Shown here piece by piece: positions 48,612-63,634 of a stretch of DNA of 64,000 nt. The stretch is taken from contig NZ_CABJFS010000001.1 in NCBI RefSeq assembly GCF_902364945.1, positions 62,001-126,000 on the forward strand. The letters are read 5' to 3'. This stretch comes from Collinsella aerofaciens. Lineage in GTDB: Bacteria; Actinomycetota; Coriobacteriia; Coriobacteriales; Coriobacteriaceae. Position numbers and translations under genes: made by a program. The first letter of the stretch is position 1; each line of letters begins with the position of its first letter. The notes beneath the pieces were generated by a model, which saw only the letters and a list, made by a program, of their open reading frames with translations, had not been told where the DNA came from and ran no database searches.

Positions 48612-48748
48612 GTCTCAATCTGTAACAGTTACGAGACAAAACCGGGTCTACACATTACAGATTGAGACGAACTCAAACATCGCAAAACATAATCTCGATC
48701 TGAAACAGTTAGAGGTCATTTTCCCCGCTAGATGTTACAGATCGAGAT
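48612..48748. repeat. Palindromic array 1: two 57-bp units
   Basis: Units lie at 48612-48668 and 48692-48748, both exactly 57 bp, with a 23-bp spacer. Each starts with a GTCTCRATCTGTAACA-like arm and ends with its reverse complement. In unit 1 the arms read GTCTCAATC/GATTGAGAC and in unit 2 ATCTCGATC/GATCGAGAT, so both partners changed together. The array lies between the divergent DEAD-box and copA genes, 74 bp before the copA promoter. Confidence 0.93.
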
Positions 48749-54056: not shown

Positions 54057-54205
54057 ATCGAGCTCCTCCCTCACGAGCAACTTGAACATTTGTCCATTAT
54101 CACCCAGTGCGGCAGGGTTGCTGCGGACATATCGGTTAACGGAGAAAGGATGAGACACGGAGAACGGAATGCATTGCAGTCCCATCCCAGCGACATCCGG
54201 GAAAT

Positions 54206-54423
54206 GTCTAGATCTGTAACAGGTAGACCGGGTTTTAGCAGCCAGATGTTACAGATCGAGATCTTTCGGCACCGCGTCCAACCTTTGTCTCAATCTGTAA
54301 CAAGTAGACAGGTTTTCGGCCTCTAGATGTTACAGATCGAGATATTTTAGCGGCAGCCAACCTTCTGTCTCGATCTGTAACAGTTGCGAGGCCAAACGGC
54401 CCCTTGTTGTTACAGATCGAGAC
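54206..54423. repeat. Palindromic array 2: three 57-bp units
   Basis: Units lie at 54206-54262, 54287-54343 and 54367-54423, all 57 bp, with spacers of 24 and 23 bp. Each unit has the arms GTCTCGATCTGTAACA and the complement of that, with unique 25-bp interiors. It lies between the amidohydrolase start and the DUF559-like stop, both on the minus strand, so it is likely transcribed within one RNA. Confidence 0.95.
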
Positions 54424-54464: not shown

Positions 54465-55535
54465 TTAGCACCCATACCACTGACGCTTCCATCCCTCAGC
54501 CAAATCGGCCCGCTGCGAAATACCCGCCAGCCTCATCTTTTCAGCCAGCTTCCCTGGGTTCTTGAGCTCATCAAACGTAAACCGAAGCACCTTATGCCCG
54601 AGCATTGTCAGATGAGATTCCCGCTGACGCTCTGCCACGAATGGGTCAACCGACTCCCGACCCTCGCCGCTCTGCAAGGTGTACTTCCCCTTTCCGTCGA
54701 GCTCGCCGATGACACACGTCCCGTCCTCGAGCCGCCAAAAATAGTCGACGCGAAACACCTGGCTCGGATCGAGCGGGTCGCGAAACTCCACCTGCAGCTC
54801 CGGAACCGGAAAGCCGTACGCAATAAAGAATGCTCGGAACCGAGACTCACCGCCGTTTTCAGACAGCCCGTCCGCATACGACGCAATCACCTGTGCCCTG
54901 CGATACCCTCGCCTGCCCTCGCAATCGGCGCGGAGGCGCTCGCACAAATCCCCACGTGATACGCCTTTCGCCCGCAGTGCAGAATCGGCAATCGCCAACC
55001 CGTAGGAGAACGGCGCACGCAGTAGGCAATCCTCCACCGTGCGCCAAAACGACGTCACCCGCACGCCGTCGACTTGCTCAAGCGCACCCGCCGCCTGCGG
55101 ACGCAACAGCCGGCATCCTGCACTCAACGTCACCGAACAACCCGTCTTAACAAGAAAACGCGACCCAAGCAGATCATTCGGCACCTCCAGACCCCACAAA
55201 AGCGCCGCGTCATAGCCCCAAAACGCCCAATCGGGATGAAACTCTGCAAGCCCTTTGATGGTACGCAGCGTTCGCTCCGCCGGCGTCAGTACACCCCAAT
55301 CATGTTGAAAGCAGAACAAATACGGCTCGGGTTCCGCGATATCGTCGGTTCCAACATGACGCCGCAGCCACATGAGCTCGGCATTGTCATGCGTTGCGAG
55401 CAGCGCACCTTGCTCGGTCGCCTCCGTGAGTCGCGCGAGCATCCTATTCCGCGCCAACGTGTTGCGAGTCGTATGCTTGTGCTTGAAAACGGTATTAGAC
55501 ACTTCCATCACCACCACATCGGACAAATGGACCAT
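54465..55535 (-). CDS. DUF559/AbiEi-like protein flanked by palindromic arrays
   Basis: This about 356-residue protein is only partly recognised. The middle part resembles AbiEi-type antitoxin/regulator proteins of actinobacteria (FHPDWAFWGYDAALLWGLEVP). The C-terminal third resembles the Vsr/DUF559 endonuclease fold: VDYFWRLEDGTCVIGELDG near residue 265, with D and E in the order of a PD-(D/E)XK-like core, then RQRESHLTMLGHKVLRFTFDEL. ATG 55535 has GGAGG 11 nt upstream; GTG 55541 has it 5 nt upstream and may be the true start. Palindromic arrays 2 and 3 lie immediately on both sides. Nuclease activity is an inference. Confidence 0.6.
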   Translation of the reverse strand: MVHLSDVVVMEVSNTVFKHKHTTRNTLARNRMLARLTEATEQGALLATHDNAELMWLRRHVGTDDIAEPEPYLFCFQHDWGVLTPAERTLRTIKGLAEFHPDWAFWGYDAALLWGLEVPNDLLGSRFLVKTGCSVTLSAGCRLLRPQAAGALEQVDGVRVTSFWRTVEDCLLRAPFSYGLAIADSALRAKGVSRGDLCERLRADCEGRRGYRRAQVIASYADGLSENGGESRFRAFFIAYGFPVPELQVEFRDPLDPSQVFRVDYFWRLEDGTCVIGELDGKGKYTLQSGEGRESVDPFVAERQRESHLTMLGHKVLRFTFDELKNPGKLAEKMRLAGISQRADLAEGWKRQWYGC

Positions 55536-55561: not shown

Positions 55562-55779
55562 GTTTCGACCTGTAACAGGAAGACCGATTTTTGGACTGTA
55601 GATGTTACAGATTGAGACATTCCCCCCAGCCAGGTGCCAAACGTCTCGATCTGTAACAGTAAGACGTTCTCCAGGCCCCCTAAGCGTTACAGATTTAGAC
55701 AAACCAGCGGTGCCCAAGCGTTCGTCTCGATCTGTAACAGATAGACTGGTTTTTGTCCCCAAACGTTACAGATCGAGAC
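55562..55779. repeat. Palindromic array 3: three units of 57, 58 and 56 bp
   Basis: Units lie at 55562-55618, 55643-55700 and 55724-55779, with spacers of 24 and 23 bp, keeping the about 80-bp period. The first unit begins about 20-27 bp upstream of the DUF559-like start. There is no room for a promoter between array and gene, so the array is probably in its 5' untranslated RNA. Confidence 0.95.
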
Positions 55780-55819: not shown

Positions 55820-56527
55820 CTACTCCCACTCTTGCTCGTAGATATTGAGCGACTTTACGTACCGCCCCTGGGCGCCCATGATGTCGCGGACCAGACGCAA
55901 GAAGAAGCTGATGCACGAGGTGTCAAAGCCGTCCTGCAGATCCTCGGGATGCACCGCACCCGGCCCGTCGACCGCCGTGTCGTTCAGGCGCGCGATGTCA
56001 TATAAGTAGAGCTGTCCCGCTGTAAGCCAGACATCGTCGACACAGGCGAGGCGCACCGCAATCGCGCCGTCGTTCCAATGCTCCTTTTGCACGATATGCG
56101 GGTCGTAGACATCAAAGCGACGATCGGTGCGTGTGTCCTTCAGCGCGACCATGCCGGACGCAGGATCCTTGTCCAAAATGCCAAAGCGAGAGAAGTACTG
56201 CGTGCCGCGCACCTGCTTAAGTCGCCCAAGCGAGGCAGGAGAAATTGACGCTGGCGGCTCATCCACATATAGCTCGAGCAGCGTCTTGCCATGGCGATAG
56301 GGGCGCTCAAACAGCAGCCAATCGGTAAACGCCATGTTGTAGGCCATGATTTCGTTTTGAGAAGGTTCCTCGCAATAGCTGAGCCACGGATCGACGATAA
56401 TCTCGAACTGCTCGCGCGCCGGCTCCAGAAACTGAAACTTCCGCAGCATCCAAAAATGGGCCATGTCGGCAATATCGTTGCCGACGGCTTCAGCCAGCTC
56501 TGCTCGGTCAAAAACTTGGTCAGTCAT
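55820..56527 (-). CDS. Uncharacterised 235-residue protein
   Basis: I do not recognise this protein. It is soluble-looking, with no signal peptide or membrane span. It is rich in aromatic and acidic residues (AHFWMLRKFQFLEP, DPWLSYCEEPSQNEI, FTDWLLFERPY) and has a second half of beta character (GMVALKDTRTDRRFDVYDPH). The ATG has GAGGAGG 5 nt upstream, so it is a real gene. It lies upstream of array 3 and the DUF559-like gene on the same strand and may be co-transcribed with them. Confidence 0.75.
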   Translation of the reverse strand: MTDQVFDRAELAEAVGNDIADMAHFWMLRKFQFLEPAREQFEIIVDPWLSYCEEPSQNEIMAYNMAFTDWLLFERPYRHGKTLLELYVDEPPASISPASLGRLKQVRGTQYFSRFGILDKDPASGMVALKDTRTDRRFDVYDPHIVQKEHWNDGAIAVRLACVDDVWLTAGQLYLYDIARLNDTAVDGPGAVHPEDLQDGFDTSCISFFLRLVRDIMGAQGRYVKSLNIYEQEWE

Positions 56528-63067: not shown

Positions 63068-63201
63068 CGCGATCCTCCCCTAGATATTTAGACAGTCAGT
63101 TGAATAGGCATACTAGGAGCATCGCCGGCCCGTTGTGTTTCCCGCCCGTTTCGAAACAATCGCGTAACGCACACCGACCATCAACGTCTTGCTATCAAAC
63201 A

Positions 63202-63256
63202 TGTACGTCAGCCCCCAAACATGTCGAAATTTGACATCTTTGGAGGCTGACGTACA
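63202..63256. repeat. 24-nt near-perfect inverted repeat upstream of gltB
   Basis: TGTACGTCAGCC at 63202 begins an arm that matches, at 22 of 24 positions, the reverse complement of 63233-63256, with a 7-nt loop GAAATTT. It is 135 bp upstream of gltB in the divergent region and could be a regulator site or a small-RNA hairpin. Confidence 0.85.
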
Positions 63257-63417
63257 CGTTTTAGTGCAGGGACAGCCGGCACATATGCATCTGGCCCCTT
63301 TGAATCATTCTGGAAACAAGGGCCATGCGGACTTTTGCATGATGGGGCTCGACACAGCAGGCCTCAAGGGCGGCAACAAGACGCCCAAGTTCGGCCTGTA
63401 AGCTCACCGCTTCAAAC

Positions 63418-63634
63418 ATCTCAATCTGTAACAGGAAGAGCGGATTTTGGCGCCTAGATGTTACAGATTGAGATTTTCTGCGGAGCGGTTTTGGTTTGTC
63501 TCGATCTGTAACACGAAGGGCCGGTTTTGGCGGCCAGCTGTTACAAATCGAGATTTTCCATAGGACCATTTCTTCCTGTCTCGATCTGTAACACCTAGGC
63601 CCAATTTCCATCCCTAGTTGTTACAGATCGAGAC
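63418..63634. repeat. Palindromic array 4: three 57-bp units
   Basis: Units lie at 63418-63474, 63498-63554 and 63578-63634, all 57 bp, with two 23-bp spacers: an exact 80-bp period. Unit 1 arms read ATCTCAATC/GATTGAGAT, both changed relative to the consensus and still paired. The array lies between divergent gltB and gpmA, 58 bp before the gpmA promoter. Confidence 0.95.

Follow-up and report, generated by a model that had tools for sequence, protein, structure and literature searches.

Phased, alternating 16-bp arms in intergenic arrays of gut Collinsella as possible docking sites for a DNA-bending protein

Four intergenic regions in a stretch of Collinsella aerofaciens DNA (64,000 nucleotides, hereafter the window) carry short inverted arms at almost fixed intervals, while the sequences between the arms differ from one unit to the next, which raises the question of what such an arrangement is for. 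We recovered all eleven units, in four arrays, that the original prediction had located in the window. In each of them, a 16-bp arm, RTCTCRATCTGTAACA, occurs as an inverted pair flanking a loop of ~25 bp, and successive units are separated by 23–24 bp. The expected unit length of 56–58 bp was confirmed (57 bp in 9 of 11), as was the spacer length of 23–24 bp in all seven window spacers. Searching with the 16-nt arm and up to 3 mismatches retrieved 22 arms in the window, compared to a chance mean of 0.34 and a maximum of 3 in 100 dinucleotide shuffles.

Array 1 (48612–48748; units 48612–48668 and 48692–48748, one spacer of 23 bp) lies in a divergent gap between genes for a DEAD-box helicase (−) and a copA-like ATPase (+). 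Array 2 (54206–54423; units 54206–54262, 54287–54343 and 54367–54423, spacers of 24 and 23 bp) is flanked by an amidohydrolase gene (−) and by an uncharacterised 350-aa gene (54465–55517, −) that sits between arrays 2 and 3. Array 3 (55562–55779) has units at 55562–55618, 55643–55700 and 55724–55779 (57, 58 and 56 bp) with spacers of 24 and 23 bp, and is followed by a gene (−) with an end at 55820. Array 4 (63418–63634; units 63418–63474, 63498–63554 and 63578–63634, both spacers 23 bp) occupies another divergent gap, between a gene (−) whose sequence looks gltB-like and, on its other side, a histidine-phosphatase (gpm-like) gene (+). The unit at 54367–54423 illustrates the intact architecture, with an arm at 54367–54382 (+), a 25-bp loop at 54383–54407 with an A/T centre, and an arm at 54408–54423 (−), both arms matching the consensus exactly. 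A half-site is exemplified by 54203–54226 (+), which comprises an A/T triplet outside the arm, the arm itself (here with A, not C, as its fifth base), two free bases and WRG.

The spacing extended well beyond the window. Among neighbouring arms up to 300 bp apart in 149 partly redundant sequences (~0.99 Mb), the start-to-start step from a forward to a reverse arm was 41 bp in 475/490 cases, and that from a reverse to a forward arm was 39–40 bp in 312/318. After removal of identical units, the 41-bp step was retained in 361/371 cases and a spacer of 23 or 24 bp in 213/218 distinct spacers, within a detectable range of 39–43 bp for steps and 16–34 bp for spacers. The predicted flip in arm orientation about every 40 bp, and with it the 80-bp period, was therefore kept in related genomes, where its loss would have spoken against a distinct family. 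Scanning 14 stretches around the arrays of G059, a genome in a single contig, with a weight matrix yielded 20 arm groups, 16 of which were runs of whole palindromes (one with an additional weak match); the exceptions were one lone arm, one forward–reverse–forward group, and two groups containing the two parts of a unit interrupted by an insertion. This insertion (L226:2100–3465, corresponding to G059:C1 ~1,828,700–1,830,060) has terminal inverted repeats GGCTTATAGGACAAAATGTGTGTCC and an 8-bp duplication, GCAGCTAG.

The repeat family is clade-specific, with dozens of intergenic units per genome in a single group of gut Collinsella. Among the 43 genomes of the genus that were examined, 22 had 26–67 units, three had a single unit and 18 had none, and a reversed control pattern gave 0 matches in the same 43 genomes. 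When 296 genomes were sampled from the class, 22 matched, all within the 37 Collinsella genomes of the sample, and the 259 genomes from outside the genus gave no match to the family. All 101 stretches found in a contig search were likewise titled Collinsella, 54 of them C. aerofaciens by hand count. Given that 18 of the 43 Collinsella genomes are array-free, any role of the arrays must be dispensable in the genus. Two of the three single units (G028 and G030) share one common locus, beside a gene whose start is presumably clpB-like, and the third (G013) lies close to a contig end; all three may represent transfers. In the 400 kb of G028 that were searched (~16%), there were no analogous arrays with another arm, and arms of at least 16 bits occurred only in its one unit. 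The loci fetched around copA from nine genomes with 0 or 1 unit contained no arm of at least 12 bits; inspection by eye near copA covered the upstream side only for L177, L178, L180 and L183. Three of these loci (L178, L180 and L183) have other long palindromes upstream of copA, the one in L178 beginning GACAAGATGGTGCCAGGTACAAACTTGTCG. The arrays do not appear to be a catalogued repeat, an outcome that would have undercut the original prediction: the window had 0 Rfam matches at the gathering threshold, we found no published description of this repeat in the open-licence literature searched, and the word Collinsella is absent from the main text of PMC3733652, PMC12306157, PMC2817692 and PMC2267715.

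Beyond the arms, the unit profile contains W-R-G two bases inward of each arm and an A/T triplet both at the centre and just outside the arms. Given that the outer triplet also occurs beyond array ends, where the A/T share was 98% at position −3, 87% at −2 and 74% at −1 (102 distinct of 370 flanks), we infer a 24-bp half-site, WWW-RTCTCRATCTGTAACA-NN-WRG. Orthologous arrays (171 pairs, drawn from 101 of the 193 arrays) differed at substitution rates of 0.033 in arms, 0.099 in loops, 0.103 in spacers and 0.101 in flanks. Changes between the A/T and G/C classes had a rate of 0.086 in flanks, compared to 0.013–0.015 at loop positions 28–29, 0.020 at the third spacer base and 0.038 at the W of W-R-G. 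The A/T class was kept, while A and T interchanged, in the triplet at the loop centre and at the third base beyond each arm, and swaps between A and T reached 0.079 at the second spacer base and 0.052 at the third, versus 0.009 in flanks. Elsewhere class change stayed near the flank rate, as at the first (0.116) and second (0.064) spacer bases, at the R (0.144) and G (0.101) of W-R-G, and at the G/C-rich loop positions 23–26 (0.073–0.104). Since loops and spacers diverged at the flank rate and class rates were low only at set points, bases seem to drift freely while their class is held at those points.

Loop and spacer lengths were almost constant. Alignment gaps per kb were about as common in spacers (13.9) as in flanks (13.3) and fewer in loops (5.3), with none in arms, although spacer length was equal in 203/207 orthologous spacers, and unit length in 394/394 orthologous pairs, the latter a biased figure owing to an ungapped-identity pre-filter on pairs. 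The non-arm A/T profile had a best cosine period of 10.1–10.2 bp around the dyad, with 1 of 2,000 permutations as high; when arm positions were included, the best period became 14.7 and was not significant (297 of 2,000 permutations as high). All of these comparisons among arrays are correlated by descent. To our knowledge, spacing held within ~1 bp together with A/T-versus-G/C class conservation at set positions is unusual among bacterial intergenic repeats.

Arrays change in size mostly by whole units. In 826 redundant ortholog comparisons with both flanks abutting, 437 were equal in size within 1 bp, and 353 of the 389 that differed did so by one to five whole units (79–82, 159–161, 240–242, 321 or 402 bp). 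Among the other 36, 28 had a 32-bp difference, alone or on top of whole units, as an indel in the flank would produce. At locus L055 the single unit is a hybrid: its left half-loop corresponds to that of unit 1 in other strains and its right half-loop to that of unit 3.

Could these inverted arms act as RNA, as terminators, processing signals or mRNA stabilisers? Arms did pair in 93.8% of cells over 89 distinct units, but shuffled partners paired as often (94.0%), and whole-stem covariation was 0.087 versus 0.090 shuffled, with 362 of 500 shuffles as high. The claim that compensatory arm changes demonstrate maintained pairing is thus not upheld: CAATC with GATTG and A...T ends do exist in single units, but there was no excess of such changes over the 89 units, and pairing did not exceed independent variation except at column pair 6–52. 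When units were reduced to 78 loop clusters, excess pairing appeared at 6–52 (z 2.5), 7–51 (z 3.9), 11–47 (z 5.7) and 16–42 (z 2.0), but the last three were due to one or two sequences, unlike that of 6–52; the most variable column pair, 1–57, paired below expectation (0.46 versus 0.55), and 5–53 about as expected (0.60 versus 0.63). Loop self-pairing, at 48.7% versus 54.4% shuffled, fell under all 500 shuffles, as if a full 57-bp palindrome were disfavoured. Furthermore, 11 of 35 distinct arrays lay in divergent gaps, arrays had no preference for gene 3′ ends, and the window was without the Rfam match noted above. On the pair counts over 89 distinct units we rejected the RNA-hairpin reading, processing hairpins included, and consider it highly improbable. 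Among 96 neighbour pairs, column pair 6–52 matched above expectation within the unit (z 3.1) and tended to mismatch across the spacer (0.33 versus 0.51, z −3.6), as did 57–1 across the spacer (0.30 versus 0.51, z −4.1). In other words, bases 1 and 6 tend not to be the same in the two arms that face each other over a spacer, while base 6 tends to agree within a unit. This pattern may reflect selection against equal arms facing over a spacer. Operators of a transcription factor acting on adjacent genes would explain why half-sites are inverted and why window arrays 1 and 4 occupy divergent gaps. However, 9 of the 35 distinct arrays were in convergent gaps, and the scanned neighbour genes had no common function, so that we regard this reading as improbable. 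Orientations of the 35 (15 tandem, 11 divergent and 9 convergent gaps, next to 110, 86 and 60 among background gaps of at least 250 bp) refer to those of 187 arrays with both neighbours called, locus-end arrays and near-duplicates being left out, and to a home-made, approximate gene caller that missed the gene at 54465–55517 and seemingly placed some genes in the wrong frame. A Pfam search of 30 proteins near or between arrays, a subset of all neighbours, returned diverse housekeeping, transport, regulatory and carbohydrate functions (for example EF-Tu-like, phosphorylase, SIS/GATase, GH1 and Clp-like). Mixed neighbour orientation and diverse neighbour functions fit neither terminators nor the operators of one regulator.

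Arrays might descend from REPIN- or MITE-like non-autonomous elements that were mobilised in trans by a transposase and later multiplied in place, with a spacing that reflects what the transposase could cut. Like REPINs, as described in PMC3116915, they are intergenic, multicopy and built of inverted arms at a set distance; lone units occur in three otherwise array-free genomes; and Y1_Tnp proteins were present in 37/43 genomes (22/22 array-rich, 15/21 others). However, the 15 Y1-transposase neighbourhoods examined (4.5–5 kb each, from 12 array-rich genomes and 15 of 85 Y1 hits) had 0 arms of at least 9 bits, whereas RAYT genes are always accompanied by two flanking REPs according to PMC2817692. 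A RAYT link was accordingly rejected for these neighbourhoods. The same places hold orthologous arrays in different strains, the sole array-free allele examined (L143) gave no clean empty site, and loops within an array were unrelated rather than near-identical copies. We consider this origin unlikely, though conceivable. Loops and spacers as captured sequences in a CRISPR-like store, suggested by even spacing and unique intervals, are scarcely credible. Within the DNA of this analysis, 42 of 449 loops shared a 14-mer with non-array DNA, against 25 reversed controls, but spacers did so in 31 versus 34 of 294, and we did not find captured spacers convincing. Both intervals have a set composition pattern and drift like flanks at orthologous places, and a viral collection matched the half-site once, as a solitary match without a partner arm.

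Arrays could alternatively serve as portals at which homologous or dedicated site-specific recombination adds and removes gene blocks, making gene order modular. Adjacency was broken in 298/829 comparisons across array gaps, 65/432 across long array-free gaps and 53/957 across short gaps, and separation of the same partners was seen 151, 4 and 21 times, respectively. Per independent locus, separation affected 10/20 array loci versus 2/22 long-gap loci (Fisher p 0.0055), although array loci were picked because they have arrays and had about twice as many comparisons each. Genome G014 has one unit at a site where G059 has array–gene–array, blocks in L242 versus L222 start and stop at arrays, and the fused half-loops of the L055 unit speak for recombination. 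Conversely, only 41 of the 151 separations had arms near both block ends, 90 had them close to one end, and 20 had none close to either; two inserts were transposase-like genes; recombination between repeats is possibly a by-product; and this reading leaves the A/T class constraint unexplained. As the reason for the arrays, we therefore regard it as rather doubtful.

The variation among units points to probable docking of a putative DNA-bending protein rather than to RNA hairpins. More specifically, we propose, with a probability of roughly 0.5, that the arrays are phased, alternating docking sites for such a protein and have an architectural role. The protein would read the half-site pattern in duplex DNA, because an A/T class kept without base identity is the expected trace of minor-groove or shape readout. 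It would probably also bend or wrap the DNA, because the non-arm A/T blocks recur about every 10 bp around the dyad. The period of 80.4 bp does not divide evenly into turns of 10.5 bp, which counts against this reading. Neighbouring genes have no shared orientation and no obvious function in common, so the role might be architectural and not gene-specific: the protein would organise intergenic DNA into regular nucleoprotein blocks, a role already proposed for BIME arrays. Among the three roles that the original prediction had offered, a binding array for a putative chromosome-organising protein fits best; RNA hairpins are not supported, and the REP/MITE-like label applies in style (BIME-like alternation), but the tagged palindromic core is absent and no arms were found at the 15 Y1 loci. 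In a more elaborate and improbable version, arrays would be a nucleosome-like positioning track, on which a dedicated bender wraps DNA via A/T minor-groove contacts, each 40-bp site accounting for a half-turn and each 80-bp unit for a complete superhelical turn, and whose blocks double as exchange boundaries for gene modules.

A link of arrays to the origin was tried and dropped: array positions were weakly biased to the dnaA half (Rayleigh p 0.02–0.03), and this bias was gone once neighbouring arrays were merged (p 0.10–0.22). Unit polarity was alike between neighbours in 46/80 cases, with no replichore effect in G059 or G014.

REP/BIME elements are palindromes of 20–40 bp with a GTAG (or CGTC) tag, and BIME-2 is bound by DNA gyrase. 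The Collinsella arm of 16 bp, or half-site of ~24 bp, is in contrast not itself palindromic, and the arrays have no fixed GTAG tag (the base before W-R-G was G in only 20%, with GTAG in some units), hold their spacing within ~1 bp and also occur in divergent gaps. Arrays that are intergenic, regularly spaced and alternating in orientation are common to both, and because such arrays are known as BIMEs in PMC2817692, which reports protein binding and suggests a chromosome-organising role, we suppose that the Collinsella arrays work like a BIME. REPINs also consist of two inverted conserved 16-mers at a constant distance in intergenic DNA, and ordered tandem clusters are described for them; the repeats in those clusters are near-identical including their flanks (PMC3116915), whereas Collinsella units differ in loop and spacer, and their arms are missing at the 15 Y1-transposase loci where a REPIN/RAYT system would be sought. 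GTAG/CGTC-tagged repeats are palindromic and form dimers and groups as well, but with stems of 5–13 bp and loops of 2–20 bp in PMC3733652, compared to 16-bp arms, 25-bp loops and no fixed tag here. Even spacing and variable intervals recall CRISPR, in which, unlike in Collinsella, the repeat does not alternate in orientation; both Collinsella intervals follow a composition pattern and are passed on at the same location. Without a tagged palindrome, and with arms in 0/15 Y1 neighbourhoods, the family was not filed as REP/BIME or REPIN.

The arrays offer a ready bait, with built-in controls (arm, triplet and spacing), for finding a new chromosome-binding protein, in a family whose records come mostly from a common human gut species. 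They also provide loci of variable number in whole-unit steps and might drive the turnover of gene blocks. As a candidate agent of the arrays, the 350-aa gene that separates arrays 2 and 3 was rejected, given that no close orthologue was detected in G014 (42 units), G010 (40 units) or G009 (53 units). In G014, one unit links the outer flanks of arrays 2 and 3 directly. Its protein had no match in Pfam, PADLOC or NCBIfam, and homologues were present in 39/43 Collinsella genomes, array-free genomes included; the end of the protein may be nuclease-like. Blocks beside a GH1 glycosidase gene, one of them edged by a LacI-type regulator, are not equally numerous in G014 and G059 and have arrays as bounds in L242 and L222, where some blocks are ~70% alike, i.e., paralogous.

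Other elements were observed close to arrays. A transposase-like gene, identified by eye and with an N-masked middle, adjoins arrays at L060:4800–6250 and L141:1640–2950 (Collinsella sp. 4_8_47FAA). The window has a further long palindrome at 63200–63258, TGTACGTCAGCC ... GGCTGACGTACA, which lies on the upstream side of the gltB-like gene at a distance of ~160 bp from array 4 and whose 12-base end occurred in no other fetched locus. A second palindromic repeat, AACCACCACAAAGG...CCTTTGTGGTGGTT, was present at L225:1920–1965, L227:2224–2260, L216:1962 and other places; its 12-base end had 61 matches, 45 of which fell within 200 bp of arrays, a zone that holds only 36,040 of 172,724 intergenic bases.
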